Origin: Cordylochernes scorpioides | Taxonomy: Eukaryota > Arthropoda > Arachnida > Pseudoscorpiones > Chernetidae | Direction of reading: 5' to 3' | Assembly (NCBI GenBank): GCA_030710605.1 | Contig: CP092875.1 | Span: forward strand, 67,656,754-67,720,753 | DNA: 64,000 nucleotides | Shown: in pieces, positions 2,691 to 64,000 of the stretch | Position numbering within the stretch: the stretch's first letter is position 1 | Layout: each line of letters opens with the position of its first letter | Notes under the pieces: generated by a model | What the model was told of the DNA's origin: nothing | Database searches by the model: none | What the model saw: only the letters and a program-made list of their open reading frames with translations | Position numbers and translations under genes: made by a program

Positions 2691-2699
2691 ATTCATATA

Positions 2700-3240: not shown

Positions 3241-3245
3241 AGCAG

Positions 3246-13440: not shown

Positions 13441-13880
13441 TTTATAAAAAATATATAATTGAAACCAATATTGTGTGTACAAATTTTAAATAGCCCATTT
13501 ATAGAGTGGAATCGTACCACATAACTACCCAAATATACAATGACCTCAAGTAACCACACACACACACACTTTGGTAAAAATTCTGAAATTTAAATATTTA
13601 AGAGGAAAATTTCCGGGAGGAAATTAATAGGAAAAACAAATGCCACTTAGCCAAATAAAGTAGATAAAAAGAAGCATAACCATTGCATCTCTTTTGACTA
13701 GAGAGGCGGCTTTTCATTTTTCATTATGTTCTTAAATATCATCCTCAACTCAGCGCCCTCTATCGCTGAGAATTATAAATATTTTAAACGCTCTACTTTT
13801 ATTTTTGAATATATAGAAAATTAAAAGATAATTCTTCTCTTAGCCTTCATATATACTGCAACGAATAAAGATAAAAAAGG

Positions 13881-13945
13881 AAGGGAATGGCTCATCAGTG
13901 GTGAACACTCCCAGCAATTTCGCCATTTCAATCTCCAGACCGCTC
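13881..13945 (-). ncRNA. Relic of permuted hammerhead-like motif, unit 1
   Basis: On the minus strand: AGCGGT, C, TGGAGATTGA, ATGGC, GAA, ATTGCT, then GTTCACCA, CTGATGA, GCCAT. Helix II is ATGGC/GCCAT, and helix III AGCGGT/ATTGCT closes with two G-U pairs. Helix I is weak. Same order of strands as the 374-bp array. Confidence 0.45.
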
Positions 13946-20470: not shown

Positions 20471-20471
20471 T

Positions 20472-26106: not shown

Positions 26107-27062
26107 ATTTCATCTGATCCCCAATACACTCTTGATATTGGGGTATGTTATTCCTTTTTGGTCTAGATCTCCAATATACTCTTGATATTGGAGTTTGTTA
26201 CTCCTTTTTAGTTTAGATCTCCAATATACCCTTGATATTGGGGTTTGTTTTTCCTTATTGTTCTAGATCTCCAATATAATCTTGATATTGGAGTTTGTTA
26301 TTTATTTTTGTTCTAGATCCCCAATATACCCTTAATTTAGGGGGTTGTTATTCCTTTTTGTTCTAGATCTCCAATATACTCTTGATATTGGGGGTTGTTA
26401 TTCTTTTTTTTTTTCTAGATCTCCAAAATACTTTTGATATTGGAGTTTGTTACTCCTTTTTGGTCTAAATCCCCAATATATCCTTGATATTGGGGGTTGT
26501 TATTCCTTTTTGTTCTAGATCCACAATATACCCTTGATATTGTGGTTTGTTATTCCTTTTTGGACTAGATCTCCAATATACTCTTGATATTGGAGTTTGT
26601 TATTCCTTTTTGGTCCGGATCTCCAATATACTCTTGATATTGGGGTTTGTTATTTCTTTTTGGTCCAGATCTCTAATATAATATTGATATTGAAGTTCGT
26701 TACTCCTTTTTGGACTAGATCTCCAATATACGCTTAATATTGTGGTTTTTTATTCCTTTTTGGACTAGATCTCCAATATATTCTTTAATTGGAATTTGTT
26801 ATTTCTTTTTGTTCTAGATCTCCAATATACTCTTGATATTGTTGTTTGTTATTCCTTTTTTGTCCAGATCTCCAATATACTCTTGATATTGGAGTTTCTT
26901 ATTTCTTTTTGGTCTAGATCTCCAATATAATCTTAATATTGGCGTTTGTTTTTCCTTTTCGTTCTAGATACCCAATTACCCTTGATATCGGGGTTTGTTA
27001 TTCCTTTTTGGTCCAGAACTCCAATATACTCTTGATATTGGAGTTTGTTATTCCTTTTTGAT
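26107..27062. repeat. 50-bp minisatellite, unit 2 (~19 copies)
   Basis: Shortest of the four arrays. The CCACAATAT/ATATTGTGG variant at 26521-26543 is orthologous to that at 8419-8443 in unit 1. Variable copy number between units shows gain or loss after amplification. Confidence 0.95.
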
Positions 27063-30439: not shown

Positions 30440-30503
30440 AAGCGGTCTGAAGATTAAAATGGCGAAACTGCCGGGAGTGTTCACCACTGATGAGCCATGC
30501 CTT
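30440..30503 (+). ncRNA. Relic of permuted hammerhead-like motif, unit 2
   Basis: Plus strand: AGCGGT at 30441-30446, C at 30447, ATGGC at 30459-30463, GAAA at 30464-30467, CTGATGA at 30487-30493, GCCAT at 30494-30498. Helix II is ATGGC/GCCAT versus TTGGC/GCCAA in the 374-bp array, a compensatory change. Helix III keeps five pairs with one G-U. Helix I is poor. Confidence 0.5.
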
Positions 30504-31196
30504 TCTTCTCTCATTTCTTTAATGAAGTATATAAATCTGTATAGAAATATATTTTGATTATTTTTATTCAAAATGAACACATATAGAGCTTAAAATATTC
30601 ACAATTTCCTTACGAATATTGGAAAGTTTATTTTGGAGAACGTTCTTACGACTTCCTATCGTATTCAGCTGAAAGCAGATTTAGGGTGTAATATCATAGC
30701 GGTAAACAATCAGAGCTCATAAAGAAAACAAATCAATGGATATTTTCAAACAATGCAGACGATCTATTGACCAACTAAGCAGCTCGATGGCCAAAATTAC
30801 AAAGCCAGGTTAGTTGGTCGTCGATAAGAAGTTAATCAGCTTTCCAATATATTCGGATATCAAGACCTAGAAATAATGCAAATTGCATTGCAAAATTTTA
30901 TAGCAATAGAAAAATTCAATTTTAAAAATTTATATAAATGAAGACAAAATAATATTTGAAGAATCCAATTGGAGCTTTCAAATAATATTCTTCAACAACT
31001 TTTCATAATTTTAAAATCTCTTAGCAAAACCAGATCAATTGAAAACGGAAGATGTTTTTGGAAGAATCCAATGTATAAATAGACATGTTTGATTTATCAA
31101 AAATATTAATAACGTCAACCGATAAATTTCAAATTATCAGTTTTATCATGGAAATATCGCAATTTCAGGATATTTGTTTGTAATTGTGTAAATTAG

Positions 31197-37233: not shown

Positions 37234-38814
37234 ATATTCCTCTCTCTTGTGGGTGCTACCCTGACATTGTACTGACGTTCATCAATAGTCTGATAATTGG
37301 TCTCTGAACGACTTGCTCAACACCACACGAGGAACTGCGTGTTTGGGCTGTATGGGATGTTTCTCCCTGTACATACCATCTATTCTCTGTTTGACTCAAT
37401 TCCCTTGCGTAAAAATACAGTTGTTGCTGCCAAAATAGTTCTTCTGGGGACAGATTTTTCAGTTTCCCTATCTCACACACAAAATATATTCTGGTAACTT
37501 AATTACTTTTCAATCCAAGAATATTAAAATTGTGTACATTTAGCATAGCCAAGATTCCTTAACGATTTTATTGAATCCAAAGATATAAAATTTAAATTAA
37601 ATAAATTAACTTTAGAAGAAAAACAAAATACAATTTAGATATCTCAAGAATAAAAACAGATATTTTAAAATTTTAAATGACTATTCTGATAAACAACAAA
37701 ATTAAACTTTTCAAAGTTCTTCCCTAACAACATACTAAATTTTCATCTTTCTCAATTTATTTGTAATCATGAAAATTTCAGAATATTTTGAAAAATAATT
37801 GAAAGAGTTGAAGACTCGAGCTTTTTTTTTTTGTGAAAACGAGGAACAAACCTCAATGCATATTTTACTTGATCGTCCTGTCTTTCAGGACTTTAGAATC
37901 AACAATAATTTAATAGTAAAAGATCTGAGTGTTTTCATTTTTAGTCAAGAAAGTATATTAATTTCAATACCTTTTGCAGATTTGAATTCTATAGCAACAA
38001 ATGTCTTCAAGGAAACACTGTGACAATATATATTATATTGATTATAGATATTCCAAGAAATCTCTTTATTTTCTCGTTAAGAGCTTAATTTGTTCTCAGA
38101 ATGTTTGAACTCTCAATTTTTTTTCCTCTTCTAATAATAATGATAAATGAACAATTTTGGTGAAAATATTTTATAGTAATGTTTTTTTTTCTCTCTTTCT
38201 CCTTGTCAATATCCTATGACTATTCCATATGGCCTACATTTTTTAAATATGTATAGAAAAATATAGAGGCATGCTTGTATGATAGCGCAAGTGTCCCTAG
38301 GGGGACATAGCGCTTTAAATTGAAATAAATCCAAGATTATTGAATTTTTTCAATTAACATAATTATTTTTATTTTAATTAGATCCTGGTGTGTCATTTCT
38401 AATTTCAAGTTGTATATGTTAAATTAGCGCCATCTTTCTTTAAAATCACTGATAAATAGCGCTAAGAATATAATAATGCTATTCTAGAAGTAAGAAAAGA
38501 AAGAGAGATAATAGATTTCAAACTTTTCATTGGAGAACTATTTCTCCTTATTTGGCAAACATATTCACTCGGAGAGTTACAGAGCGTTGTCTTACCCATT
38601 TGGTTTGAATTATATATATAGGTTTTATCCTCCGCGTAAAATTATAATTTCATAATATTTGATACTATACGATATACATTCAATAGATTTTTAATTATGC
38701 AATATGTGCACAGTTATTAGAAATGAATTCACACAATTCTACGACCCTTTATTAGATGTTATTGAGAGAATATTATTTATTAATGTCCCCTCTAATAACT
38801 CGTTTTTTTTTAGG
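37234..38814. other. Spacer, unit 3
   Basis: AT-rich sequence matched by unit 4. A short hairpin lies at 38284-38314. A 74-codon frame at 37799-38023 is close to a homologous stretch in unit 4 (about 56100-56316) and contains CENEEQTSMHILLDRPVFQD, another C...H...C-like pattern, so it may be a further decayed LINE end. No intact gene. Confidence 0.45.
38284..38314. repeat. 31-bp palindrome (AGCGC...AGCGCT), unit 3
   Basis: AGCGCAAGTGTCCC, TAG, GGGGACATAGCGCT: nearly self-complementary. Conserved in unit 4 at 58478-58508. Purpose unknown; possibly the end of a small transposable element. Confidence 0.5.
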
Positions 38815-40258: not shown

Positions 40259-40325
40259 AAAATAAAAAGTTTCGGGTCTTATGGTCCAACCTGTATATTT
40301 GATTTAAATATAAATAAATTTATAT

Positions 40326-40525
40326 AAATTTACTGCCAATGCGCTTCTTTTAAATATCATCAAATATTATATCTACAGACCTTACTGCAATGATATGAGC
40401 TTTTGAATGAGAGGACTTGGCTCATCAGTACTGAACCCTCTCATTCAATAACTCATATCATTGCAGTAAGGTCTGTAGAGATAATATTTGATGATATTTA
40501 AAAGAAGCGCATTGCCAGTAAATTT
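40326..40525. mobile_element. Palindrome with hammerhead-like strand
   Basis: Arms about 40326-40415 and 40432-40525, starting TTTACTGCCAATGCGCTTCT. The loop on the minus strand is TTCAGTACTGATGAGCCAAG, flanked by GAGAGGG and CCTCTC, which is strand A of the 374-bp family (TTCACCA, CTGATGA, GCCAA). Strands B and C are absent. The GAATG/CAATG..TTCTTTTA start is shared with the elements at 53571 and 56332. Unit-3 specific. Confidence 0.65.
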
Positions 40526-41132
40526 ATTTGTGTAAAATTCTAACGATAGATGGCAATTAAATTTAATTTACAAATAAATGAATATCTTCAACTTTTTTAT
40601 ATTTTTCCAGTGTTTCCAACCACTTTTATATTTTACCCCTCTGTCCAGATATATTTAATTTTTTTTCATTATAATTGAATTATTTTTTATTATTTATTGA
40701 GTATGGAGTACACGCTCCACGCTCTTCAAAATATTAGTCTACTCAGAATTTAAATACAAAGTAAACACAATTGAAAATAATTAATTTATTCAAGGATAGC
40801 TCTATTTTCGAAACAATAGCAAATATATTTATATAAAAAGAGCATACCTCGATATGTTAAAGAAAAAAATGTTTTTATTTCTTTAACAAATCTAGGTAGG
40901 CTTTTTTATTTAAATATATAAAATTCTGATCGTTTTTTGACACAAAATAACAAATAGAGTTTTCCTAAAGAGGGCAAGTCGCTGAAACGTTAAAAAATGA
41001 AATATAAAAAGATTGAAGATATTCATTTATGATTTTAATTAAATGAATCAACTACACAAATAGTTTCTCCATAATATACATATTGGTGACAATTCCTTAA
41101 CCTTTGTGTGTGTGAATTTTGTGACCCGCGTG

Positions 41133-42302: not shown

Positions 42303-43507
42303 TTCATTTGACCCCAATACATTCTTGATATTGGGGTATGTTATTCCTTTTTTGGTCTAGATCTCCAATTTAACCTTGATATTGAAGATTGTTATTCCTT
42401 TTTGCTCTAGATCCCCAATATACCCTTGATATTGGGGGTTGTTATTCCTTTATGTTCTCTAGATCTCCAATATACCCTTGATATTGGAGTTCGTTACTCC
42501 TTTTTGGTCCAGATCTCCAATATAACCTTGATATTGGGGTTTGTTATTCCTTATTGTTCTAGATCTCCGATATAATCTTGATATTGGAGTTTTTTTATTT
42601 ATTTTTGTTCTTGATCTCCAATATACTCTTGATATTGGGGTTGTTATTCCTTTTTGTTCTAGATCTCCAATATACTCTTCATATTGGAGTTTGTTACTCT
42701 TTTTTGTCTAGATATCCAATATACCCTTAATATTAGAGTTTGTTATTTCTTTTTGTTCTAGATTCCCAATATACACTTGATATTGTGGTTTGTTATTCCT
42801 TTTTGGTCTAGATCTCCAATATACCCTTGATATTGGGGTTTGTTATTTATTTTTGTTTTAGATCCACAATATACCCTTTATATTGTGGTTTGTTATTCCT
42901 TTTTTTCTTGATCTCCAATATACCCTTGATATTGTGGTTTGTTATTCCTTTTTGGACTAGATCTCCAATATACTCTTGATATTGGAGTTTGTTATTCCTT
43001 TTTGTTCTAGATCTCCAATATTCTCTTGAAATTGGAGTTTCCTATTTCTTTTTGGGATCCATATCTCCATTTTACTCTTAATATTGTGGTTTGTTATTCC
43101 TTTTTGGTCTAGATCCCCAATATACCCTTGATATTGTTGTTTTTTATCCCTTTTTGGACTAGATCTCCAATATACTCTTGATATTAGAGTTTGTTATTTA
43201 TTTTTGTTCTAGATCTCCAATATACTCTTGATATTGGGGTTTGTTATTCCCTTTTGTTCTAGATCTCTAATATACTCTTGATTTTGGAGTTTCTTATTCC
43301 TTTTTGGTCCAGATCTCCAATATACTCTTAATATTGGGGTCTGTTATTCCTTTTTGTTCTAGATACCCAATAAACCCTTGATATTGGAGTTTCTTATTCC
43401 TTTTTGGTCCAGATCTCCAATATACTCTTGATATTGGAGTTTGTTATTTCTTTTTGTTCTAGATCTCCAATATACTTCTGATATTGAAGTTTGTTATTCC
43501 TTTTTGA
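42303..43507. repeat. 50-bp minisatellite, unit 3 (~24 copies)
   Basis: Same repeat as units 1, 2 and 4, with more irregular copies. The CCACAATAT/ATATTGTGG variant recurs at about 42864-42888. Confidence 0.95.
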
Positions 43508-48149: not shown

Positions 48150-48220
48150 AGCGCTCTGAAGATAAAAATGGCAAATCCGCCGGGATTGTTCACGAATGAT
48201 GAGCCATACCTTTCTTCTCT
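48150..48220 (+). ncRNA. Degenerate relic of permuted hammerhead-like motif, unit 3
   Basis: AGCGCTCTGAAGAT, ATGGC, AAATCCGCC, GTTCACGA, ATGATGA, GCCAT. Helix II pairs ATGGC/GCCAT are kept, but two core positions are lost (CTGATGA to ATGATGA and GAAA to AAAT). Confidence 0.35.
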
Positions 48221-49203: not shown

Positions 49204-50105
49204 AGTAAAGAGTATTTGTCTATATTTGAAAGTATTGTATTTGTGTATATCTAAAAGCCTATTGCATTTGTTTATATATTAAAGTATTGTATTTGTCGAC
49301 ACATGAAAAATTTTATTTGTCTTTACCTGAAATTATTGCATTTGTTTTATATCTTAAAGTATTGTATTTGTCTATACCTGAAAGTTTTGTATTTTCTATA
49401 TCAGGAAAATTGTATTTTTAGTTATTTTATGGAGCTTTATATACTTTTCTTGTTCGAGTATTTTTAATACATTTTTTTGGAAGCATATTGTATATTTCTA
49501 TTTCTTAAAATATTGAATTTATCAAATTCATATTGTATTTGTCTATTTCTGAATGTATTTGGCCGTTTTTTTTTCTGAAAATATTGTATATATCTATTAA
49601 TGGAACTGTGGTATTTGTCTATATATAAAGTATTATATTTTTCGATTTATGAGAGTAATTTGTTTATATATTTCTGAAAATATTGTATTTATCGAATTCT
49701 GAAATCTTTTTGTCTTTTCCCGAAGGTTTTGTATTCAAAGAGTGATTTTCAGAAAGTATTGCATTTATATATTTTTCTGAATGCATTGTATATGTCCTTT
49801 CAGGAAGTACATTTTTTTTTGCTATTATACTGAAAAGATATTTTGTTTATCTTTTTCTGATAGTATTGTATATATATTCTCAGGAGAAAGAAAGGAAGTA
49901 TTGTTTTTCATATTATATGAACTGAAAAAGTATTGTATTATTCTATTTCTAAAGTTTGTGTATTTATTTATTTCTGAAAGTGAATATTGTATTTGTTTAT
50001 TTAGCAAAAACAGTGTAATAATCTATATCTAAGAGTATTGATGTATATCTGAGAGTATTTTGTAACTGTCAAATCTTTCTGAAAGTATTATATCTACTTC
50101 TCAAC
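49204..50105. repeat. Degenerate ~25-bp AT-rich array, unit 4
   Basis: Closely follows unit 3. Confidence 0.75.
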
Positions 50106-50154
50106 TTGCTACCTTGTTTGAATAAAATCTTGTTTGTTAATAATTAAGTAATTT

Positions 50155-50711
50155 GCGAACTACATTATGTTGGTGAAACCGGCAGAACCATTGAAATCAG
50201 GACTAAAGAACACAATAGAAACATCATGAACATAGACAGCCGTTCCCAGATTTATCAGCACATGGCAGAAACACAGCATTCATTTGATTTCACAGACACC
50301 CAATGTATTTACAGTAACATACGCGGAAAATATCAACGACTGGTCCTGGAGGCTTTGGTTTCCAATAAAATTCCGAGCCTCAATAGATAAATTGAACTAC
50401 CCCCGCAGTACATAGCTTTTTGTAATAGCATGGATCCCGCATAAGGAATTTTAACCTCAAGTGTTTTCCCGATTTATGTATATATTTTATTTATTTTAAA
50501 CTTATTTTAAACTGGATTTCTCGCTCGCTCTCTAGGTGTGTTGATACGTGCTTGTTCGTGGCAATTCCGCTTCAATATTCAAATCTTACTTAGTTGGGTG
50601 TATATACCTCTCCGCACATTTTCTTGGATTACCTGAAGAAAAGCGTTTTGCTTGAAAGCTTGTATTTTCAATAAAAAGAAACTCACAACGTTATATTTTC
50701 GTTTTCTCTTT
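50155..50711 (+). mobile_element. 5'-truncated Penelope-like element
   Basis: Insert flanked by the 10-bp target duplication TAAGTAATTT at 50145-50154 and 50712-50721; unit 3 has one copy of it at about 33127. It starts inside the GIY-YIG domain, then has a 3' untranslated region ending CCTGAAGAAAAGCGTTTTGC, TTGAAAGC and a short A-rich tail. A single copy, not an inverted pair, so it shows the simple outcome of integration. Confidence 0.9.
50160..50443 (+). pseudogene. Penelope-like GIY-YIG C-terminal fragment
   Basis: Frame reads ELHYVGETGRTIEIRTKEHN, RNIMNIDSRSQIYQHMAETQ, IYSNIRGKYQRLVLEALVSN, KIPSLNR, then TAA, IELPPQYIAF. YVG, the basic helix and the H of QHMAETQH are intact. The internal TAA near the C terminus shows decay or a shorter natural end. 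Confidence 0.85.
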
Positions 50712-50721
50712 TAAGTAATTT

Positions 50722-53558
50722 CTGTTAAATACATTTTTCCATATTATATATTAATATTTTTCTCTTTATTATAATTATTTATATATATTTTAAATTTAAA
50801 ATAAAATGTATTTTGAAATATTAAATGTAAATTGTTTCAAAAATTGGGTATATGATTTATTCAATTTCTCTCTTATATTTCCAACCTTTAAAATATTATG
50901 AATTACTATTAGTATTCGTATATATAAGCTATTATTATGTTTTACTTTTTTTAAATGTTCATATATGTAAATAAACATTGGTTTGAATAACGGATTTAGT
51001 ATTATTTTGTGTATAACCCAATATTTTGATCTTTCACTCCCTACTTGTTTGGATCTTTTCATTTTTAAATCTCTCATGAGAATCTTATGAGAGACTATAA
51101 TTCTTTAAAAATGGATTTGAGTGATAACAAATTTGCATTCATATTTTAACATACTGTCAGACCACCATGAAAGCCTGAAAATTTCACCTAGGATCAATCA
51201 GATAACAATGATTATTCATTAATTTTAAGACATCTATAAACGGATTTCTATCTACGTGTATGTTAAATATAAAAATATGCAGAAATTTAATGAACAAAAG
51301 ATGGAAATAAAACCTATCACAAATAAAATAAAGACTATATGAAAAGATAAAAGTGTAAAATAATCAGAGAAAATTTGTTAAGTAACGGAAAGTAAGATGA
51401 AGCAAGCTAACGAATGAAAATACAAGAAATTGGAGTAATACAAATGAATCATTTATGACTGAAAATATATAAAATATAGTAAAAATCAATCGATTTATAA
51501 AAATAAAGATATAAATAACTAAATATATAATCTTAATAGATCAAATATTTACTATTGCCTTCATGTTTATATAAATAAAAATAAATATTCGGACATCTAA
51601 TAAAATAGAACCTCAGAATATTAGTATTATAATCGTGAGTGAGAAAGTAGAATAGTTTATTCAGTGCAAAAGTTAATACATTTGTTTAGTTCAAACTGAA
51701 AAGAACAAAATATTTATAGAAAACATATTTGGCAAATAATGAATTTTAAAATATTTTATGTTAAGGCTTACATTAAAAGGCGCCGTGAACTTAACTAATA
51801 CAAACTTTCAGTTACCAATATAAAATACATTCTTATGGCAAAGATAAAAGCGACAAAGGCAGACATTATAAATATTGAACTTATTTTCAAATCAAAGCGC
51901 TATGCCCCCTAGCTATACTTGCGCTGAAATACATGTATGCTTTTACAGTTGTCTATACATGTATATATGAAATAATTTTAGGCCGTAAAAAATAATCATA
52001 AGATATTAACAAGGAAAAGAAAAGGGAAAAATTGTAATAAAATATTTACAACAAAATTAGTTTATTTATCATTATTATTAAAGGATAAGTAAAAATGAGT
52101 TATGTAAGAGCTTAAACAGTTTTTAATAGGACAAATGAAATTACTAAACCTAAACGATAACAGAGAACTGTGTACAAAACAAGAATGATATTTCTGACAA
52201 TATATCTACAATTTGCATGTTATAAATATTTATAATATCATAAAAGATATTAGTTCCTATATAATTCAAAATATATCTGCAAATGGTATTAAATTTAATA
52301 TACGTTTCTTTACTTTAAATGAAAATACTTGGATCTGTTACTATTAATATAAATATTTTTTGATTCTTTAGTCCTGAAAAACAGGACAACCCCGTAAAAT
52401 ATTTATTGAGTTTTGGTCCTCGTGTCCAAAAAAAAAAAACCTCGAGTCCTCCATTGCTTTAAGCCTTTTTAAAAAGATTCTGAAATTCCATGATTTGAAA
52501 TGAATTCAGAATTAGGAAAGCTTGGCCGGAAATATTTTACTATTGCAATAGTCTATTTATTATCAGAATCTACGTGGTCAAGATTTTTATGGAAAATTGA
52601 ATGCAAATTTGAAAGGAAATACAGAAAATAGATCATTTCCGACAACCCAGAAATATGAAAATTGGCCAACTTAATATGAATTATTTGTTTGAACAAATAA
52701 ACAAAATATATCAGAATTCTAGATGTTTATTGAGTATTTTATAAATTGAACACAAGATCTTTGGGTCGCTAAACTGACAGACATGGAAGCTAGTTGAATA
52801 AACCCTTTTAAAAAAGCATTTCAAAATTTCAGCATATTTCAAAGCCGCAAATATGCGAATTGATATTTAGATGGAAAAACAAAACACCTGCAGGATTTCA
52901 GTATATTTTAAAATTATTTTAATATTAAGCCTTTATATCTTTGTATATTAGATGAATATTTTTATATGATGGAATATCTTAGCGGTGTAGGTGAAAATTT
53001 ATTTTATCATGTCAACACCTTTTAGGTTTAAATGCGCGATTACTTGATGCTCAATATTTGTCTTTCGGTTATAAAAAAATAAGAGACACTTGGTCTAGAA
53101 TATTATTTTCTTTAATTTTCGTTGTTTCGACAAAAGTTTGTCTTCGACAAGAAAATAAAACATTTTGTTTAGCTCTATGGAGGTATAAATTTATAACGTC
53201 TTGTTAAAAGAATTTTGTTCAAACGTCAAATAAAAATTCTCAAATTTCAAATAACTATGAATGTCACCAGGAAATATCTATCTTCCTTTTTGGTTATTTA
53301 CCTCAAATTAAGACTGTGATAAGACTTAGAAGTGGCTTTTTATCTATAAACCCGTTCATAGAACGTCTAATAATGAATCATTATATATAAGTTAGCAGAA
53401 GGACCTGACTTTGCCAAGCTTTTCCACGGTGAAAGTTTGTCAAAACGAATATTGAGATATCAAATCTTGTTCATTATGATTGTATTATGTGCATTCTAAT
53501 TAGTAATCGTGATTTTAATAATAAACTTAGAACAGAACAACACTAAAAGTATAGTAGT
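50722..53558. other. AT-rich spacer, unit 4
   Basis: Near-collinear with unit 3 (33130-35990). No gene seen. Confidence 0.55.
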
Positions 53559-53699
53559 ATCTAATTTACTGCGAATGTTTCTTTTAAATAAAAATCGAAA
53601 TTTATTTTAAAGAGAAATAACGACTATTTCTAACTTTAAGGATGAAGTATTAAAGGGTGAAAAATATGAAGAGTAATGGCGAACGGAAAAATAAAAGTG

Positions 53700-53771
53700 T
53701 CCAGGGGCGGGAATCGAACCCACGACCTTCCGTTTACCGGGCAGATGCCATGTCCACTAGGCTACCCTGGA
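53700..53771 (-). tRNA. tRNA-like sequence inside the dimer (first copy)
   Basis: 72 nt on the minus strand that fold as a tRNA: acceptor TCCAGGG/CCCTGGA, D arm GCC/GGC, anticodon stem TCTGC/ACGGA with one mismatch, T arm GTGGG-TTCGATT-CCCGC. The loop CCGGTAA would give anticodon GGT (Thr), but position 33 is C instead of the near-universal U. No CCA is encoded. Probably a tRNA-derived part of the element. Confidence 0.6.
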
Positions 53772-53823
53772 CATATCTTTCCGTTCGTAAATATTATATA
53801 AAGGAATTTAAAATACAATATAA

Positions 53824-53865
53824 CGCGGCTGATGATTGTAAAACGAAAATTGCAATTATACCGCG
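53824..53865 (+). ncRNA. Hammerhead-like ribozyme motif (type I order)
   Basis: CGCGG (53824-53828), CTGATGA (53829-53835), TTGTAAAAC, GAAA (53845-53848), ATTGCAATTATA, CCGCG (53861-53865). Stem I CGCGG/CCGCG pairs perfectly and ATA before CCGCG fits the cleavage triplet. Helix II (TTGTAAAAC) pairs poorly, which is the main weakness. A second copy is at about 54205-54255 on the minus strand with one stem change (CCTCG). Confidence 0.4.
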
Positions 53866-54002
53866 AATGTTTCTTTTAAACAAAAATCGAAATTTATTTT
53901 AAAGAGAAATAACGACTATTTCTAACTTTAAGGATGAAGTATGAAAGGGTGAAAAATATGATTTAAATTACTTTATATAATATTTACGAACGGAAAGATA
54001 TG

Positions 54003-54074
54003 TCCAGGGTAGCCTAGTGGACCTGGTATCTGCCCGGTAAGCGGAAGGTCGTGGGTTCGATTCCCGCCCCTGGA
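54003..54074 (+). tRNA. tRNA-like sequence inside the dimer (inverted copy)
   Basis: As the first copy, with the anticodon stem TCTGC/GCGGA now fully paired and the D arm GCC/GGT. Anticodon loop CCGGTAA again has C at position 33. Confidence 0.6.
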
Positions 54075-54329
54075 CACTTTTATTTTTCCGTTCGCCATTA
54101 CTCTTCATATTTTTCACCCTTTCATACTTCATCCTTAAAGTTAGAAATAGTCGTTATTTCTCTTTAAAATAAATTTCGATTTTTGTTTAAAAGAAACATT
54201 CGAGGTATAATTGCAATTTTCGTTTTACAATCATCAGCCGCGTTATATTGTATTTTAAATCTAATTTACTCTTTAAAAATATTCAATAGATGTTGATATG
54301 AATCTAACATCTTGTTCTATGTGGTTTAG

Positions 54330-54560
54330 TGTGCTGTGGAATTCTGTATCTGTATCACTCTTATTTTCCTACTGCGGTGAAACTCCAGTAAAAGAGAAGA
54401 TGCCATAATCTAAATCTACTCTGAGACCAAGGAGGCGAGAAGAAATTCCTTTCGAGACTCAGCAAGTCCAGTCCACATGTGAGTAATGTTCCTCCATATC
54501 TACCTGAGAGAATTGGGATGGACAACGTGGGTGACAATGTTATCTTGAACTTTCAGTTCT
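54330..54560 (+). pseudogene. Exon-like block (VPPYL...), unit 4
   Basis: Same block as in unit 3. The donor-like GTGAGTAATG is kept and VPPYLPERIGMDNVGDNVIL follows. The second putative donor (ACTGTGAGA) is lost here. Confidence 0.35.
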
Positions 54561-55140
54561 AATATATAGTTTACCCTATGTGAACGGAATTGGCTTCGAT
54601 GTTTTTTATTCAATGTGTTGTTTGGACAGCTGATAATTTGAAGAAATGTATTTTTTAAATAGTGCCAAAATAATATCAAATCAAATTCATATGAAAGGTT
54701 TTATTGTAATATATTGATATTTAAAGGTAAAAATCAAATATAATATGGAAATAAGCTAAAAGCTTATTTCTAAGGTATTGTGGTTTTGTCATAAAAAAAC
54801 CTGAGTCATCTACTTAAATAAATCAATAAATATATAGTTTTAGGTTTTATTTTCCTTTTGATAGAAGGAGTGATATTTCTTTTAAAAAACAATATCCTTA
54901 CAACAAAATTTCCATCTATATTTCGGCCGTGGAATTAGTTTAGCGACATTGCCGAATAAACCTCTCTGTAACTTTCTGAAGATTTATTGAATCCCTTGTA
55001 AACATCGTGGAATCCCAAGACTGACGAGCCATTATTCTGAAACTATTATCTCGGTCTCCTCGTTTTCATTCCCTGCTCTTTGAACAGTTCCATTAAATAT
55101 CTAATGTGTTAAGACCCGTGGTAGAATTCTTTAATCTAGG
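54561..55140. other. Spacer, unit 4
   Basis: AT-rich; matches unit 3 (36300-36840). No gene seen. Confidence 0.5.
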
Positions 55141-55144
55141 CCTG

Positions 55145-55488
55145 TGAAATGCTACGTTTCATCAGGATAATGCACGAGCGCATGATGCTGTAATTGTACA
55201 TAACTTCATACTTACAGAAATTTGTGGCTGCTTGACCCTACCTGTATCCACTGTTCAGAAGAGCCACAGACAGTCGATTATCTTCTCTTCAGCTGTCCAG
55301 CATTCCCAAGACATAGGATGCAAACATCTATTCTGCTCGGACTGACCCACCTCAATCATAGATCTATCTCCAGGTTTCCAGACTCAACCCAGCGAGAAAA
55401 TATCTGGTCAACTGGTTCAACTCAGAAATCAAAACAGGACGCGAGTAAAAAACGCTCAACACTAGTCCATACTAGTGAGCATGGGTAG
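55145..55488 (+). pseudogene. Tc1/LINE fragment cluster, unit 4
   Basis: Orthologue of 36845-37233: ATFHQDNARAHDAVIVHNFI (the Tc1 signature has lost QQDNAP) followed by CIHCSEEPQTVDYLLFSCPA with the CxxC-H-C pattern changed (H to Y). Decay is further along than in unit 3. Confidence 0.6.
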
Positions 55489-56318
55489 TGGTGCTCTGCC
55501 CTTCAGGAAACTGGGTTATAAATATTCCTCTCTCTTGTGGCTGCTACCCTGACATTCTCCTGACGTTCATCAATAGTCTGATAATTGGTCTCCGAAAGAC
55601 TGGCTCATCACCACACGATGAACTGATGAACTGTGTGTTTGGGCTGTAAGGGATGTTTCTCCCTGTATATGCCATCTTTTCTCTGTTTGACTCAATTCCC
55701 TGCGTAAAAATACAGTTGTTGCTGTCAAAATAGTTCTTCTGGGGACAGTATTTTCAGTGTCCATATCTCAAAAAATATTCTGGTAATTTAATAACTTTTC
55801 AATCCAAGAATATTATAATTGTGTACATATTGCATAGTCAAGATTCCTTAAAGATTTTATTGAATCCAAAGATATAAAATTTAAATTAAATAAATTAACT
55901 TTAGAAGAAAAACAAAATACAATTTAGATATTTCAAGCATAATAACGGATTTTTTAAAATTTTAAATGACTATTCTGATAAACAACAAAAATGAAACTTT
56001 TAAAGCTTCTTCCCTAACAACATACTAAATTTTCATCTTTCTCAATTTATTTGTAATCATACAAATTTCAGAATATTTTGAAATATAATTAAAACAGTTG
56101 AAGACTCGAACTTTTTTTTTTTTTGTGGAAACGAGGAACAAACCTCAATGCATCTTTTACTTGATAGTCCTGTCTTTCAGGACTTTAGAATCAACAATAA
56201 TTTAATAGTAAAAGATCTGAGTGTTTTTATTTTTAGTGAAGAAAGTATATTGAATTTAAAACCTTTTGCAGATTTGAATTCTATAGCAACTAATATCTTT
56301 AAGGAAACACTGTGATAA
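55489..56318. other. Spacer, unit 4
   Basis: Matches unit 3 (37234-38030). No gene seen. Confidence 0.5.
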
Positions 56319-56454
56319 TATATATTATATTAACACGAAGCAATAACGCGCCATCTATGCATATAAAATGAAAGAATTTAAAAGCACGAATGTTTCTTTT
56401 ATACATAATACAAACTTCTACTGCCCTTACTGCGATGAAAAATATATATTGGGA

Positions 56455-56520
56455 GGGCTTGGCTCATCAGTGGTGAACCCTCCCAGCGGTTTCGCCAATT
56501 TAATCCACTAGACCGCTTCT
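56455..56520 (-). ncRNA. Permuted hammerhead-like motif, monomer 1
   Basis: Minus strand order: AGCGGT, C, TAGTGGA, TTAAA, TTGGC, GAA, ACCGCT, GGGAGGG, TTCACCA, CTGATGA, GCCAA, GCCCTCCC. The three helices are AGCGGT/ACCGCT (III), TAGTGGA/TTCACCA (I, one mismatch and one G-U) and TTGGC/GCCAA (II). All core residues are present, with G-U-C at the cleavage triplet. Equivalent motifs in the other monomers are at about 56829-56893, 57203-57267 and 57577-57641. Confidence 0.6.
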
Positions 56521-58071
56521 CAAAGCTCTAATACTGTATTGGACGATTCTTCTTATATACGCAGCACTGAAGGGTGGAATCTCAGAAATGGTTTTCAAGA
56601 AAACTATGGACATAAGCTTATAGGACAGTAGAATTACATTCAAATATTTGCATCGAGCAATGCTCTTCCGCAAATAATAAAGACAAGGTCAGGTAGACAT
56701 AAATTAACACAAAGCAATAACGCGCCATCTATGCATATAAAATGTAGGAATTTAAAAGCACGAATGTGTCTTTTATACATAATACAAACTTCTACTGCCT
56801 TTACTGCGATGAAAATTATATATTGGGAGGGCTTGGCTCATCAGTGGTGAACCCTCCCAGCGGTTTCGCCAATTTAATCCACTAGACCGCTTCTCAAAGC
56901 TCTAATACTGTATTGGACGATTCTTCTTATATACGCAGCACTGAAGGGTGGAATCTCAGAAATGGTTTTCAAGAAAACTATGGACATAAGCTTATAGGAC
57001 AGTAGAATTACATTCAAATATTTGCATCGAGCAATGCTTTTGCGCAAACAATAAAGACAAGGTCAGGTAGACATAAAATAACACAAAGCAATAACGCACT
57101 AGCTATGCTTATAAAATGAAAGAATTTAAAAGCACGAATGTTTCTTTTATACATAATACAAACTTCTACTGCCCTTACTGCGATGAAAAATATATATTGG
57201 GAGGGCTTGGCTCATCAGTGGTGAACCCTCCCAGCGGTTTCGCCAATTTAATCCACTAGACCGCTTCTCAAAGCTCTAATACTGTATTGGACGATTCTTC
57301 TTATATACGCAGCACTGAAGGGTGGAATCTCAGAAATGGTTTTCAAGAAAACTATGGACATAAGCTTATAGGACAGTAGAATTACATTCAAATATTTGCA
57401 TCGAGCAATGCTCTTCCGCAAATAATAAAGACAAGGTCAGGTAGACATAAATTAACACAAAGCAATAACGCGCCATCTATGCATATAAAATGTAGGAATT
57501 TAAAAGCACGAATGTGTCTTTTATACATAATACAAACTTCTACTGCCTTTACTGCGATGAAAATTATATATTGGGAGGGCTTGGCTCATCAGTGGTGAAC
57601 CCTCCCAGCGGTTTCGCCAATTTAATCCACTAGACCGCTTCTCAAAGCTCTAATACTGTATTGGACGATTCTTCTTATATACGCAGCACTGAAGGGTGGA
57701 ATCTCAGAAATGGTTTTCAAGAAAACTATGGACATAAGCTTATAGGACAGTAGAATTACATTCAAATATTTGCATCGAGCAATGCTTTTGCGCAAACAAT
57801 AAAGACAAGGTCAGGTAGACATAAAATAACACAAAGCAATAACGCACTAGCTATGCTTATAAAATGAAAGAATTTAAAAGCACGAATGTTTCTTTTATAC
57901 ATAATACAAACTTCTACTGCCCTTACTGCGATGAAAAATATATATTTGAACGTAATTCTACTGTCCTATAAGTTTATGTCCAAAGTTTTCTTGAAAACCA
58001 TTTCTGAGATTCCACCCTTCAGTGCTGCGTATATAAGCAGAATCGTCCAATACAGTATTAGAGCTTTGAGA

Positions 58072-58138
58072 AGCGGTCTGTTGGATTAAATTGGCGAAAC
58101 CGCTGGGAGGGTTCACCACTGATGAGCTAAGCCCTCCC
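58072..58138 (+). ncRNA. Permuted hammerhead-like motif, inverted copy
   Basis: AGCGGT 58072-58077, C 58078, TGTTGGA 58079-58085, TTGGC 58091-58095, GAA 58096-58098, ACCGCT 58099-58104, TTCACCA 58112-58118, CTGATGA 58119-58125, GCTAA 58126-58130. Helix II keeps pairing by a G-U (GCTAA with TTGGC). Helix I changes from TAG to TGT and still has one mismatch, so stem pairing is roughly kept. Confidence 0.6.
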
Positions 58139-58236
58139 AATATATATTTATCATCGCAGTAAGGGCAGTAGAAGTTTGTATTATGTATAAAAGAAACATT
58201 CGTGCTTTTAAATTCTTTCATTTTATATATTATATT

Positions 58237-59000
58237 GATTGTAGATATTACAAGAAATCTCTTTATTTTCTCGTTAAGAGCTTGATTTGTTCTTAGAATG
58301 TTTGAACTCTCACTTTTTTTTCTCTTTTAATAATAATGATAAATTAACAATTTTGGTGGAAATATTTTATAGTAATGTTTTTTCCCTCTTTCTCCTTTTC
58401 AATATCCTATGAATATTCCAAATGGCCTACATTTTCTAAAATATGTATAGAAAAATATAGAGGCATGCTTGTAGGAGAGCGCAAGTGTCCCTAGGGGGAC
58501 ATAGCGCTTTAAATTGAAATAAATCCAAGATTATTGAATTTTTTCAATAAATAGAATTATTTTTAATTTGAATTAGATCCTGGTGTGTCATTTCTAATTT
58601 CAAGTTTTATATGTTAAATTAGCGCCATCTTTCTTTAAAATGACTGATAAATAGCGCTAAGAATATAATAATGCTATTCTAGAAGAAAGAAAAGAAAGAG
58701 AGATAATAGATTTCAAACCTTTCCTTGGTGAACTATTTCTCTTTATTTGGCAAACATATTCACTCGGAGAGTACCAGAGCGTTGACTTACTTATTTGGTT
58801 AGAATTATATATATGGGTTTTATCCTCCGCTTAAAATTATAATTTCATAATCTTTGATACTATACGATATACACTCAATAGATTTTTAATTATGCAATAT
58901 GTACAGAGTTATTAGAAATAAATTCTCACAATTCTACGACCCTTTATTAGATGTTATTGAGAGAATATTATTTATTAATGTCCCCTCTAATAACTCGTCT
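58237..59000. other. Spacer, unit 4
   Basis: Matches unit 3 (38040-38800), including the 31-bp palindrome at 58478-58508. No gene seen. Confidence 0.5.
58478..58508. repeat. 31-bp palindrome (AGCGC...AGCGCT), unit 4
   Basis: Identical in form to 38284-38314. Confidence 0.5.
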
Positions 59001-59004
59001 TTTT

Positions 59005-59085
59005 AGGTTGACTGCTTCTGTGTGTGACCTTCCCTTCCAAAGTGAAAGTTCAGTCCCACAAGAGGAATCTTTCATAATTGCGGTA
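59005..59085 (+). pseudogene. 70-nt exon-like block, unit 4 (decayed)
   Basis: As unit 3, with TTTTTAG before and GTAATA after. It has gained bases, so the length is not 70. Confidence 0.35.
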
Positions 59086-59549
59086 ATACAGAACTTACCT
59101 TTTATCATTACACAACTTCATCAATGATGTGCTTGAAATTGACAATTTTGAAAATATATCACAATTGCCAGAGTTGGGTTTAGTCACGTATTACGTGTTA
59201 ATAATAAAAATTACGAAGATATTTAAACCAAGAGAGAAGTACTTCAAATTACCAAAGAGTTCTTTTTTGTTTGCGCTAGTTATAAATTTTTTATATTAGT
59301 AATGGATTATCTTAAATATTTAACTTCTTCATAATGAATGAAAAGAAAAAAATATAATAAAGACAAGGTTTTATACCATTGAAATACGTTAGAATTACAT
59401 TATCTTGAAATTCACAGCATCATTCACAAGGATGTGAAATTATGAAATGACCTTTTGAATTTGATGGTCACCTTACACAGGTATAATAGAGCTTGTGTAA
59501 GTTTAACATCAAACCAAGGAAAAATCCAAGCTGCTTTGGTGGCCCTTTG

Positions 59550-60275
59550 ATTTATATAACCCCAAAAATCGTTCTGAACAAGTCTTATTATTTTGGCGCC
59601 ATTTGGTGGACCTTGGACGCTACCCTTCAGGTTAAACCTCTGCTTTTCATATTGAGGGAAACGGTACAAAAATATAATTTAAACTGTGCAGCAGTATTGT
59701 GATGACTATGGAAATATGGTGCAAATATAACCAAGTTGAAAGAGCCAATTTCAGCGCTCGAACTACTATCAATGGATAATGTGGGAATCCTATGTCATGA
59801 TCAGGAAGGGAGAGCAGGGGGAGTCCGTAGAATATTATGCTTAGAAACTCTCCTTTTTGAAGGTCTGGTCTCCACTCTGGAGGGGCGTGGGTGGGAGCCC
59901 TCCAGGAGGGGGGGTGGGGTTGTATACCACCTCTCTCGCGACTCCCTTCCTGGATAAATAGCTTCTTAAACCTCCTTTTGAGAACCAAATGTTTTTAATT
60001 CTTTCTATAATTACATAACACAGGACATAAGAGAAAGTGAGCCCCATAGCCTCAGAGGATTAGTCTGTGGCCTCCCCCTTGAACCCATAGATCCTTTGGT
60101 CTGGCTTGTGACCTTTCCTTGGGCCCAATTGATTCGGTGGACTGGGATGTGCTGACTCTAAGCTGGCCATGATTTTAATCAACAGCATGCCAACTGCTTG
60201 CTCTACTTTATCTTGTGGTATCCCAACATTTACGATGGGACTCTGAATAAATATACCTAATGAAGTACTGAACAA
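59550..60275 (-). pseudogene. Conserved minus-strand ORF block, unit 4 (broken)
   Basis: Frames 60060-60275 and 59841-60047 correspond to the 158-codon ORF, with at least two frame breaks. Sequence is closer to units 1 and 2 than to unit 3. Confidence 0.35.
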
Positions 60276-60394
60276 ATTTGAGTGTTAAACCTTTTTTGTT
60301 GATTTAATTCTATCCCTATATAAATTAAACTAATTTTAGAGGTTCCAATTGATTCCAGATTGGCCAGTAATCCTGAACCCTTTTATGTTTTGTT

Positions 60395-60465
60395 AAAAAT
60401 TGAAAGACAAACTAGATTAAAATAATTTTAGTTTTGATTTTAGTTTGCCTTTTAATTTTTAATTA
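60395..60465. repeat. Hairpin repeat (AAAGACAAACTA), unit 4
   Basis: As unit 1, one arm has G to A. Confidence 0.65.
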
Positions 60466-60695
60466 AAAAGGGTTTTCAGGGTTTATGGTCCAACCAGTAT
60501 ATTTCATTTAAATATAAATGAATATTTTTAACCTTTTTATATTTTTCAGCGTTTCAAACCACTTTTATATTTTACCCCTCTTTCCAAATATTTATAATTT
60601 TGTTCATTAATTTTGAATTATTTTTTATTTTTCATTTATAATATCAGTCCAATCAGAATTTAAATACAAAGTAAACAAAATTGCGAATATTTTAT

Positions 60696-60740
60696 CAAAA
60701 AGGCATATATTAAATTAAAATAAATGCCTTTTTAATTAAA
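60696..60740. repeat. Hairpin repeat (AAAAAGGCATATAT), unit 4
   Basis: As unit 1, with some arm decay. Confidence 0.6.
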
Positions 60741-60776
60741 TATTTATTTATGGATTGCTCTATTTTCAAAACAATA

Positions 60777-60778
<2 letters not shown>

Positions 60779-60808
<30 letters not shown>
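60779..60808. repeat. (TA)n microsatellite
   Basis: About 15 TA repeats at a spot where the other units have only three to six. Confidence 0.9.
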
Positions 60809-60816
<8 letters not shown>

Positions 60817-61097
60817 CCTCGATATGTTAAAAAATATATATTTTTTATTTCTTTAATAAATCTAGGTTGGCTTATATATATATATATAATTCTGATCGCC
60901 TTTTGACACAAAATAACAAATAGAGTTTTCCTAAAGAGGGCAAGTGGCTGAAAGGTTGAAAATAAAATATAGAAAGATTGAAGATATTAATTTATGATTT
61001 TAATTATATAACTCAACTACACAAATAGATTCTCCATAATATACATATTGGTGACAATTCCTTAACCTTTGTGTGCGTGAATCTTGTGACCCGTGTG

Positions 61098-61293
61098 ATT
61101 CTGAAGTTGCCTGTCCCAATTTCGACGTTACATTTTGGTGGTATATGCTGGGTAGTTTAGGGAAAACAGACTGAAGATCGCCGAGAAAACTTTGTGGCAA
61201 CGGTTGCTATGATCGACATTTTCAGAGACTGGCTCAAGGAATTCATCGCCGTTTCAAAGCCAAGAGTTTCCTCCAAGATTACCATGTCCCTAT
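61098..61293 (+). mobile_element. Fragment of miniature LTR element, unit 4
   Basis: Orthologue of 6685-6883. Confidence 0.55.
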
Positions 61294-61305
61294 AGCCTTT
61301 CGTAG

Positions 61306-61808
61306 GTGTACAGCATCGTTGTTCTGAATAACCTGATTCTGCTCTTTTTTAGTTTTATTTCTACAAGTCTGCAAGTTGACAAAACTCTGTCCTGCCACCA
61401 GACCTGCTGTCTTCCTTGCGCGGATTCAAGTCTAAAGAGCCTTCCCTTGAAATGTTCGTATTTAAGGATTCTAAACGCGTGCTGCGTTCCTGGAGCCTCT
61501 ACTAGCGTCTACTACAGGTCATCAACTTCCGGGTGGTGCACGAGGTAAAAAAATGTCGTCCTGCCAATTTAACAATGACCCTCACACACCTCCACAGCCT
61601 GTTCGCGGGAAGGAATATGGTTTCAGCTTCTCCTACAAATATATTCTTCAAAGCTGAGGGCGTGATTGGACATTCCCTTCATTTGTGTGGCCTCCGCTTA
61701 ATCTCCTCAGCCGACCTACACCTCAATAACCTTTCCGGACACTACATGCCAAGACATCCTGGAAAATCTACCTCGAGGTCTGCCAACTATGTGATAGATC
61801 GCTTTTAA
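61306..61808 (+). pseudogene. Conserved plus-strand ORF, unit 4 (TAG plus frameshift)
   Basis: TAG shared with the other units; a one-base deletion near 61388 (ACTCTGTCCTGCC versus ACTCCCGTCCGGCC) breaks the upstream frame. Downstream part intact: VVHEVKKCRPANLTMTLTHL and ADLHLNNLSGHYMPRHPGKS. Confidence 0.5.
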
Positions 61809-62271
61809 ACAGTATATGGAGTTGCCGCTACCTTCAACCATCCCAAGATGTTTGCTTCCCACAAAGTGTTTCTGGAGGCCAACTGGTCGTTCTCATCAGT
61901 TTCGACTTCAAAAGAAGTTCACATGATCCGCCTCTTGTATTGAAGAGATTTTAACCAATCTTATATCTCCCTGTATCTATATTATAAATTATTTAACTTT
62001 TCTATCGAGGTTATTCAGTGGAATAAAATTATAATAAAACAATTTTTTAATTTTATTTTGGTAGCAACTTATTTTATATTAGATATCACACAAACAATTT
62101 ATCATATTTGAAAACTTTTTATTCAAAAATGTTATTTCAATAAAATGGATATATTTATCAATGTCTTCTTTGAATCCTTCTAAATATTAGTTTAACTATA
62201 TAGAGATAGAATTAAATCAATAACACTTCTTAAAATGTGAATTTATTATCATTATTATTTCAATTCCATTT

Positions 62272-63512
62272 GACCCCAATACACTCTTGATATTGGGGTT
62301 TGTTATTCCTTTTTGGTCCAGATTTCCAATATACTCTATATATTGGGATTTGTTATTCCTTATTGTTCTAGAAATCCAATATATTCTTGATATTGGAGTT
62401 TCTTATTCCTTTTTGGTCCAGAACTCCAATATATTCTTGATATTGGAGTTTGTTATTCCTTTTTGTTCTAGATCTCCAATATACTCTTGATATTGGAGTT
62501 TGTGATTTATTTTTGTTCTAGAACTCCAATATACTCTTGATATTGGGGTTTGTTATTCCTTTTTGGACTAGATCTCCAATATACTCTTGATATTGGAGTT
62601 TGTGATTTATTTTTGTTTTAGAACTCCAATATACTCTTGATATTGTGGTTTGTTATTCCTTTTTGTTCTAGATCTCCAATATACTCTTGATATTGGGGTT
62701 TGTTATTTCTTTCTTTTCTAGATCTCCAATATATTCTTGATATTGTGGTTTGTTATTCCTTTTTAGACTAGATCTCCAATATACTCTTGGTATTGGAGTT
62801 TGTTATTCCTTTTTGTTCTAGATCTCCAATATACTCTTGAAATTGGAGGTTCTTATTTCTTTTTGGTCCAGATCTCCAATATACTCTTATTATTGTATTT
62901 TGTTATTTCTTTTTGTTTTAGATCCTCAATATACCCTTGATATTGTGGTTTGCTATTCCTTTTTTGGCCTTGATCTCCAATATACCCTAGATATTGTGGT
63001 TTGTTATTCCTTTTTGGACTAAGTCTCCAATATACTCTTGATATTAGAGTTTGTTATTTCTTTTTGTTCTAGATCTCCAATATACTCTTGATATTGGGGT
63101 TTGTTATTTATTTTTGTTCACGATCTCAAATACTCTTGATATTGGAGTTTCTTATTCCTTTTTGGTCCAGATCTCCAATATACTCTTAATATTGGGGTTT
63201 GTTATTTCTATTTGTTCTAAATACCCAATAAACCCTTAATATTGGGGTTTGTTATTCCTTTTTGTTCTAGATCTCCAATATAGTCTTGATATTGGAGTTT
63301 CTTATTCCTTTTTGGTCCAGAACTCCAATATATTCTTGATATTGGAGTTTGTTATTCCTTTTTGTTCTAGATCTCCAATATACTTCTGATTTTAGAGTTT
63401 CTTATTCCTTTTTGGTTCAGATCTCCAATTTACTCTTGATATTGGAGTTTTTTTATTTCTTTTTGTTCTAGATCTCCAATATACTTCTGATATTGGAGTT
63501 TGTTATTCCTTT
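62272..63512. repeat. 50-bp minisatellite, unit 4 (~25 copies)
   Basis: Same repeat as the other units. Frames across it (for example 62287-63239) reflect the repeat only. Confidence 0.95.
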
Positions 63513-64000
63513 TTGATAAGCTGAAATGCTTAATTTTTCAGAAAGTATTTCGGAATTTCTTCCATTTCAAACTCCATATATCTTTCCTCTACTCTCTCGG
63601 TTTCTTTTTTGCTCGGTCTTCTATCCATTTGTGTCGCTAGTAATGATGATAAATTCACATTTTTATACACACAGGGAGTAATTTAAATTTAATTTTCATA
63701 GTTATATTTGTTCAGTACTAAATCTCCTTTTAATGATTCAGAGTCTCAACAACCAATGTAGGGTACACCCTGAGATAAGGTAGAGCTGGCACTTGGCATG
63801 TTGTTGTTTCAATGGCTGGCTGAAGGGTTGGCCACTGACTAGGCTACTGGATCGCGGGGCTCGGGTTAGGTCATAGGCTAGGTCATTGGGTCTATGTGGT
63901 TCAGGGGATGGCCACAGACTGGTCCACTGGATGAGGCTATGGGGCTGACTTGGATTGATAATCCCTTCCTTTATCATAAAGTACATTTCTGAAACCTGCG
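63513..64000 (-). other. Conserved post-minisatellite block, unit 4 (cut by window end)
   Basis: Same as 9211-9700, with the minus-strand 82-codon frame open at 63738-63986 (MYFMIKEGIINPSQPHSLIQ). Confidence 0.35.

Follow-up and report, generated by a model that had tools for sequence, protein, structure and literature searches.

A type-SGC hammerhead family in a probable retrozyme-like element of the pseudoscorpion Cordylochernes scorpioides

Among described hammerhead ribozymes, the nearest to the subject of this paper is type SGC, a non-circularly permuted class that Eckert, Friedrich, Weinberg and Weinberg defined in 2023 from 583 predicted RNAs (PMC10085705). As set out there, five tested examples cleaved at the expected bond and a sixth, without the site, did not; in the single example that was thoroughly mutated, each of four helices (I, II, III and one joining I and II) was required; and RNAs of 79-81 nt cleaved as single molecules in vitro. 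The linker between stems I and II is typically three nt, and that between the joining helix and stem III is 0-44 nt. Permuted hammerheads have so far come almost only from environmental RNA samples and, with the exception of one type-GCS candidate, the study places none of its RNAs in the genome of a known organism (PMC10085705). Searches of the open-licence PMC literature, which leaves out subscription papers and preprints, brought up no subsequent account of a genomic type SGC. Here we describe a 374-bp tandem repeat in 64,000 nt of DNA from the pseudoscorpion Cordylochernes scorpioides (contig CP092875.1, positions 67,656,754 to 67,720,753 of the forward strand; ‘the window’ below), each complete monomer of which carries a hammerhead core in S-G-C order. 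Judged by its sequence, this is a real type-SGC hammerhead family, a ribozyme type known since 2023; what is new is where it occurs: in the genomic DNA of a eukaryote, within a retrozyme-like element, and in copies that number tens of thousands. We consider it quite probable that the repeat is a small non-autonomous non-LTR (long terminal repeat) retroelement, with the type-SGC hammerhead as its unit-length processing ribozyme in place of type I.

Two kinds of mobile element offer comparisons. Metazoan non-LTR retrozymes carry type I hammerheads, and circular RNAs have been shown for them (PMC7229834). The element described here resembles them, as that source presents them, in being a tandem repeat of 150-450 bp with low GC, target-site duplications (TSDs) of more than 4 bp, a single hammerhead in each unit, no long open reading frame (ORF) and a probable Penelope-like element (PLE) in the same genome. 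It differs in its S-G-C order, and we therefore call it retrozyme-like in its workings without classing it as a retrozyme. With PLEs it shares tandem and partial-tandem copies and AT-rich targets, but PLEs encode a reverse transcriptase (RT) and a GIY-YIG endonuclease and have canonical hammerheads, whereas this element has no recognisable protein (PMC11167929). In the account of Frangieh et al. (2024; PMC11167929), a PLE cleaves AT-rich DNA on both strands and extends each of them; reverse transcription starts internally at two RNA sites, whose spacing accounts for an optional ‘tail’ of 30-40 bp.

In the window, Tandem Repeats Finder (TRF) placed 4.3 head-to-tail copies of the 374-bp unit at 56329-57946. 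Complete hammerhead strand sets are present in four monomers on the minus strand and in one inverted partial copy on the plus strand. An empty site in a paralogous segment of the window (37960-38103) delimits the insertion to 56332-58223, exactly the extent that the original prediction had given from the letters alone, and a 13-bp duplication of the target, TATATATTATATT, lies on both sides. The features are as follows.

56319..56331, no strand: left target-site duplication TATATATTATATT (empty site in paralogous segment; 13-bp repeat)
56332..58223, no strand: complete insertion, made up of a tandem array (sense on the minus strand) and an inverted partial copy (TRF; empty site; duplications)
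58224..58236, no strand: right target-site duplication TATATATTATATT (13-bp repeat)
57573..57639, minus strand: type-SGC core of monomer 1, predicted cut 57633/57632
57199..57265, minus strand: type-SGC core of monomer 2, predicted cut 57259/57258
56825..56891, minus strand: type-SGC core of monomer 3, predicted cut 56885/56884
56451..56517, minus strand: type-SGC core of monomer 4, predicted cut 56511/56510
57942..58228, plus strand: inverted partial copy, 95-97% identity to array units
58072..58138, plus strand: type-SGC core of the inverted copy, predicted cut 58078/58079
57300..57307, minus strand: TATA-like box TATATAAG, 42 nt upstream of the monomer 2 core (from sequence; putative function)
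38027..38039, no strand: empty target site of the insertion, in the paralogous segment

The core reads AGCGGTC-TAGTGGA / TTAAA / TTGGC-GAAA-CCGCT / GGGAGGG / TTCACCA-CTGATGA-GCCAA / G / CCCTCCC in each of the four complete monomers. Its strands follow the order site (S), GAAA (G), CUGAUGA (C), with crossing stems, and the classical cyclic order A-B-C of types I-III is not found in the window cores. A fourth helix, GGGAGGG/CCCUCCC, joins stems I and II (the clamp). Thus the order, the core letters, stems I-III and the joining helix are those of the HRIMA-1 motif and type-SGC variants as described in PMC10085705. The linker between stems I and II is 5 nt here and typically 3 there; the joint between clamp and stem III is 0 nt, within the 0-44 of type SGC, a state that few members have there and that the authors call ‘structurally not obvious’, but that is the usual one here. 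Stem I of the window array contains a single C.A mismatch, at the second position after the cut, and the inverted copy has one change in stem I and one in stem II, the latter a G-U that keeps the pairing.

Most of what the original prediction had read from the repeat is borne out: three hammerhead strands in every 374-bp monomer in the order C, B, A, helices I, II and III with a GUC triplet (stem I with the mismatch just given), and two hairpins, stem III and GGGAGGG/CCCTCCC, that face their loops to each other. Its crossing helices also stand, but there is no need to bring together strands of separate monomers or molecules, since type-SGC examples of about 80 nt cleave singly (PMC10085705). 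Its statement that no hammerhead with this permutation had been described was mistaken, the order being that of type SGC as published by Eckert et al. (PMC10085705). Checks it had proposed gave the following results. A descriptor made of rules only, with no family letters, matched the window six times (the four monomers, the inverted copy and an older copy at 13.9 kb), as against two matches in 300 first-order Markov resamplings of it. Rfam listed no hammerhead family for window positions 50000-64000 at E up to 1, as expected because the strand order is permuted. RF00163 returned 0 over the organism's own genome, but with 74 of 285,298 candidates scored and 14 controls silent this says nothing about classical hammerheads there.

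The family is abundant. Across the organism's own genome (2.62 Gb in 24 contigs), the half-pattern of G then C, GGCGAAAN{15,36}CTGATGAGCC, has 71,442 exact matches (35,743 + 35,699), with none for the backwards control; when the cleavage strand is added, as GCGGTC 10-18 nt upstream, 29,974 exact matches remain (control 0). The same stem II letters in classical order, CTGATGAGCCN{4,36}GGCGAAA, give 38 matches (control 0), most of which can be recognised as rearranged or short tandem forms of this family. Being exact matches, these counts are lower bounds for the family, and they include segmental and tandem duplicates. Copies are dispersed over many contigs. The contrast with the type-SGC RNAs of PMC10085705 is one of setting: eukaryotic genomic DNA, 29,974 exact full matches, and a location inside what we take to be a retroelement.

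Among the fetched copies the commonest core has TGGTGGA in place of the window's letters, pairs in 7/7 positions of stem I and has all four helices perfect; it accounts for 30 of 122 places, which hold 30 distinct sequences (some places lie in two overlapping loci and are counted twice). Around this main family, A, are several diverged ones. Family B has the site GUC, a stem I that starts UAG/CUA and the clamp GAGAGGG/CCCUCUC; family C has the site GUA and stem II CUGGC/GCCAG; E13 and E30, older copies in the window, have stem II AUGGC/GCCAU. Compared with A, families B, C, D, E13, E30 and F326 retain 53-63 of 68 core positions (78-93%), as against 21-35 of 63 in the near upstream and 21-43 of 55 in the near downstream flank. 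The farther upstream flank agrees with A at 40-63 of 80 positions, a range given without unrelated AT-rich DNA as baseline. Boxes like TATATAAG also stand upstream of the cores in families B and E13, and less exact ones in C and E30. Matches in about 50 nt of flank, taken at one stage for element ends, were dropped as the search margin.

We aligned 35 distinct cores (24 + 11 rows) with MAFFT, omitting 6 of the 30 distinct sequences (5 from locus L333 and 1 that differs only in the flank) and most E13-type rows; a MAFFT gap in stem I was kept, although another placement would improve the pairing of families B and E13. Standard pairs fill 91.7% of 866 pair cells; shifting the partners by 1-3 columns lowers this to 33-53%. 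In 20 cells both partners are changed, as against 6.4 in shuffles (0 of 500 as high), and pairs with a both-sided change number 7, as against 3.8 (15 of 500 as high). The outer pair of stem II (25/64) is UA in 20, AU in 8 and CG in 5 sequences, with both-sided changes in 13. Stem I is paired in 86.4% of cells, and two of its pairs are changed on both sides, one in 2 sequences and the other in 1; the clamp is paired in 92.7% and has four such pairs, each in 1 of 35 sequences, one of those rows representing the common family B. Stem III, paired in 92.9% of cells, shows one-sided (GU, UG) changes only. Because many cells come from related sequences, independent events are few: at least two in the outer stem II pair, and in stem I and the clamp one or two sequences each. 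The comparison of further genomic copies that had been suggested as a check on covariation thus came out in favour of stem II and, more weakly, of stem I and the clamp, while stem III had one-sided changes only. CUGAUGA and GAAA are nearly invariant, and the cleavage site conforms to NUH: H17 is C in 28, A in 5, U in 2 and G in none of the 35 cores. Minimum free energy (MFE) folds of 4 of 5 cores contain both stem III and the clamp (z -2.6 to -2.8).

TSDs of 11-16 bp, well above 4 bp, flank the element at 13 of 26 places, at AT-rich targets; four of the 13 (the window, L247, L250 and L254) are paralogous copies of one insertion, leaving about ten independent. Counted from the predicted cut, outer ends lie near unit position 149 (CATTTTATA) or at 180-186 (GTGTTA), while inner starts vary and the cut junction is crossed. 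A second, inverted piece is frequent and ends on the outside at whichever of these sites the first piece does not use, giving a head-to-head arrangement. In 15 of 16 two-ended insertions a short outer end is combined with a long one, the two differing by 31-38 nt in 13 of them; the 16 were hand-picked from 43 loci, the bounds of ‘short’ and ‘long’ were chosen after the data had been seen, and about 12 are independent (the window, L247, L250 and L254 are one insertion, L297 and L303 another). Single-ended or unclear loci (such as L248, L262 and L264) and repeated breakpoints (L302, L312) were excluded. We liken the two preferred outer ends to the internal RT start sites of PLEs, which lie 30-40 nt apart and bound the ‘tail’, and the head-to-head arrangement to their cutting of both strands (PMC11167929). 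Many insertions comprise one unit or less, yet the core is retained.

For the window insertion, GC is 0.348 (56001-58000), below 50%, and the unit of 374 bp lies within the 150-450 bp of metazoan retrozymes. The single stop-to-stop frame of at least 120 amino acids that overlaps it is 122 amino acids long and has no Pfam match above cut-off, and no ORF with RT and GIY-YIG domains was found in it. The same insertion with the same target duplication is present in four paralogous segments of contig C13 (the window, L247, L254 and L250), with 4.3, 2.3, 1.3 and 1.3 sense units, so that array length varies among copies of one insertion. Units 1 and 3 of the window array have 0 differences, and neighbouring units differ at 13 of 374 positions. 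The last, partial unit (56332-56510) is of the even unit type to position 149 and of the odd type from 150 to 180, save one change of its own. The switch coincides with the second of the RT start sites, and in this one case the 31-nt ‘tail’ may derive from a different template.

A candidate mobiliser is present in the same genome. The window holds two GIY-YIG fragments (2072-3241 and 19789-21092), one just above the Pfam cut-off (22.9 bits, cut-off 22.6) and one below it. Both lie in head-to-head palindromes with arms 95-96% identical, the same geometry as the ribozyme element. In the genome, the fragment above the cut-off has 150 scored relatives among 50,581 candidates, many of them about 100% identical, with frames of up to 829 amino acids; 28 adjacent pairs lie within 10 kb of each other, 26 head-to-head, 2 in tandem and 0 tail-to-tail. 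Searches of PDB and NCBIfam with the fragments gave nothing useful. From its domain and this geometry, the GIY-YIG repeat is probably a PLE, and we think that it or a close element moves the ribozyme element.

Taken together, the sequence basis of the retroelement reading is the permuted core with stems I-III and clamp, the copy number, the covariation between families and the retention of the core over the near flanks, along with TSDs at AT-rich targets, tandem and head-to-head insertions and two preferred outer ends. Catalysis by the core is very likely. In transcripts of tandem units, stem III and the clamp would form two hairpins; pairing between the loops of these, as stems I and II, would build the hammerhead core. 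The core would cut after GUC, or after GUA in one family, and a host ligase would close the 374-nt units into circles, unless the RNA is used uncut. A PLE would then nick both strands of an AT-rich site, and reverse transcription would start inside the RNA at one of two places (unit positions of about 149 and about 180-186 after the cut), so that two cDNAs would meet head to head.

Several observations weigh against this reading. Half of the places (13 of 26) have no clear TSD. A breakpoint pattern matched 274 times, with letters for 21, and by eye about 3-4 of 20 start at +1, other 5' ends being scattered over -5 to +5 and beyond; insertion 5' ends were therefore abandoned as marks of the cut, and their failure to pile up there indicates that cleaved linear RNA is not the usual template and that circles or uncut RNA are used instead. 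Nothing in the insertions proves cleavage in vivo. In the anole element, insertion in vitro does not require the classical PLE hammerhead (PMC11167929), and the same could apply here. Nor does the alternation of unit types prove copying from dimeric circles, an idea we dropped: unequal exchange is the simpler account, because the same insertion has fewer units in the paralogous segments. For the Penelope-like assignment the domain evidence is a single narrow match. Mismatches occur in stem I, both in the units of the window and in families B and C. MFE folds contain extra pairs within the two loops, in competition with stems I and II, and the fold of the E13 core is no better than that of its shuffles (z 0.05) and lacks the pair of hairpins. 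Further pair types show no excess (23 vs 21.3 in shuffles, 92 of 500 as high). At the level of copies, the stem II pair is changed on both sides (A-U) in 333, on one side in 3191 and 3493 and unchanged in 71,442; the expectation is 156 (3191 x 3493 / 71442), and age differences and duplications could suffice for this roughly twofold excess. The count of classical-order strings covers one stem II sequence, and the farther flank of family B is still like A at 63 of 80 positions.

Some of these points would suit an explanation in which the mobilising protein recognises the two hairpins, or they act as a hairpin signal in DNA; the hammerhead letters would then be a remnant, decayed or coincidental, with no catalytic activity. 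Both hairpins do appear in the MFE of 4 of 5 cores, cleaved 5' ends leave no footprint in insertions, the copy at 40408-40442 consists of the hairpin alone, with clamp and no cleavage strand, and the anole result points the same way. However, the most constant letters (CUGAUGA, GAAA and a non-G H17) sit in the loops, where a mere hairpin would not need them; stem II, which crosses stem III, covaries as UA/AU/CG; and other sequences built on this four-helix plan do cleave in vitro (PMC10085705). We regard this explanation as unlikely.

Less credible still are two others. The classical nested fold could be assembled within a long transcript, each of three consecutive monomers giving one strand, or between separate molecules: the order A1-B2-C3 across a multimer would be classical, and salamander hammerheads perform better as dimers (PMC7229834). 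Such a fold must nevertheless outcompete two strong local hairpins, the core is kept in the many insertions of one unit or less, and the short type-SGC RNAs of PMC10085705 cleave alone; we think it very improbable. An ordinary satellite or foldback repeat, amplified at the DNA level with no RNA stage, would account for array lengths that differ between paralogous segments and for tandem versions with 64-bp and 122-bp spacing. It sits poorly with copies dispersed on many contigs, with some ten independent sites that have AT-rich TSDs of 11-16 bp, and with variable inner junctions and two preferred outer ends, which are usual for target-primed reverse transcription, and we give it hardly any credence. 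The tandem versions in question are short arrays at L333 (contig C3:61419835-61420519; 64 bp) and at C1:3060811-3061212 (122 bp), and the first is largely the ribozyme core itself.

Further members of the family, in various states of decay, lie elsewhere in the window.

13878..13944, minus strand: older divergent type-SGC copy, stem II AUGGC/GCCAU (E13)
30441..30507, plus strand: older divergent type-SGC copy with a weak stem I, missed by the strict descriptor
48150..48216, plus strand: decayed type-SGC copy with mutations in both GAAA and CUGAUGA; its paralogue is the copy at 30441-30507
40408..40442, minus strand: CUGAUGA hairpin alone, clamp GAGAGGG/CCTCTC, in the middle of a palindromic insertion, without cleavage-site or GAAA strand

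The palindromic insertion at 40324-40527 has only the central CUGAUGA hairpin; the other strands are lost, and the clamp is retained with a compensated pair. Other repeats of the window include 50-bp tandem arrays at 7869-9209, 26116-27060, 42314-43506 and 62276-63515, each part of a larger unit. This unit of about 16-20 kb recurs through the window at about 69-94% identity, and related copies of one part of it are mostly on contigs C13 and C23. A palindrome at 53563-54260 has two tRNA-Thr(GGT) predictions in opposite orientation.

Outside this genome, the family-specific patterns had 0 matches in IMG/VR and 0 in GTDB contigs, and the generic patterns yielded no convincing type-SGC relative among the IMG/VR matches listed (L001-L199). 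Of the 249 IMG/VR places among these, 179 fit the type II (G-S-C) order under a descriptor of ours, one of them also S-G-C, and 70 fit neither; motifs in type II order occur on many viral contigs there, several per contig in some.

Which organisms carry permuted hammerheads, and what role these play, was left open in 2023 (PMC10085705). Here a single genome with tens of thousands of diverged variants offers a natural library of mutants of a pseudoknotted hammerhead, in which one family has a GUA site and in which the clamp runs directly into stem III. It also ties the permutation to a mobile element and, through two-ended insertions, to Penelope internal reverse transcription. On balance we favour, with some reserve, the view that in one eukaryotic lineage type SGC took over the role of type I as the processing ribozyme of a Penelope-driven circular-RNA retroelement, in about 30,000 exact and probably more than 70,000 copies. 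If so, a rare permutation would gain a genomic home and a biological role.
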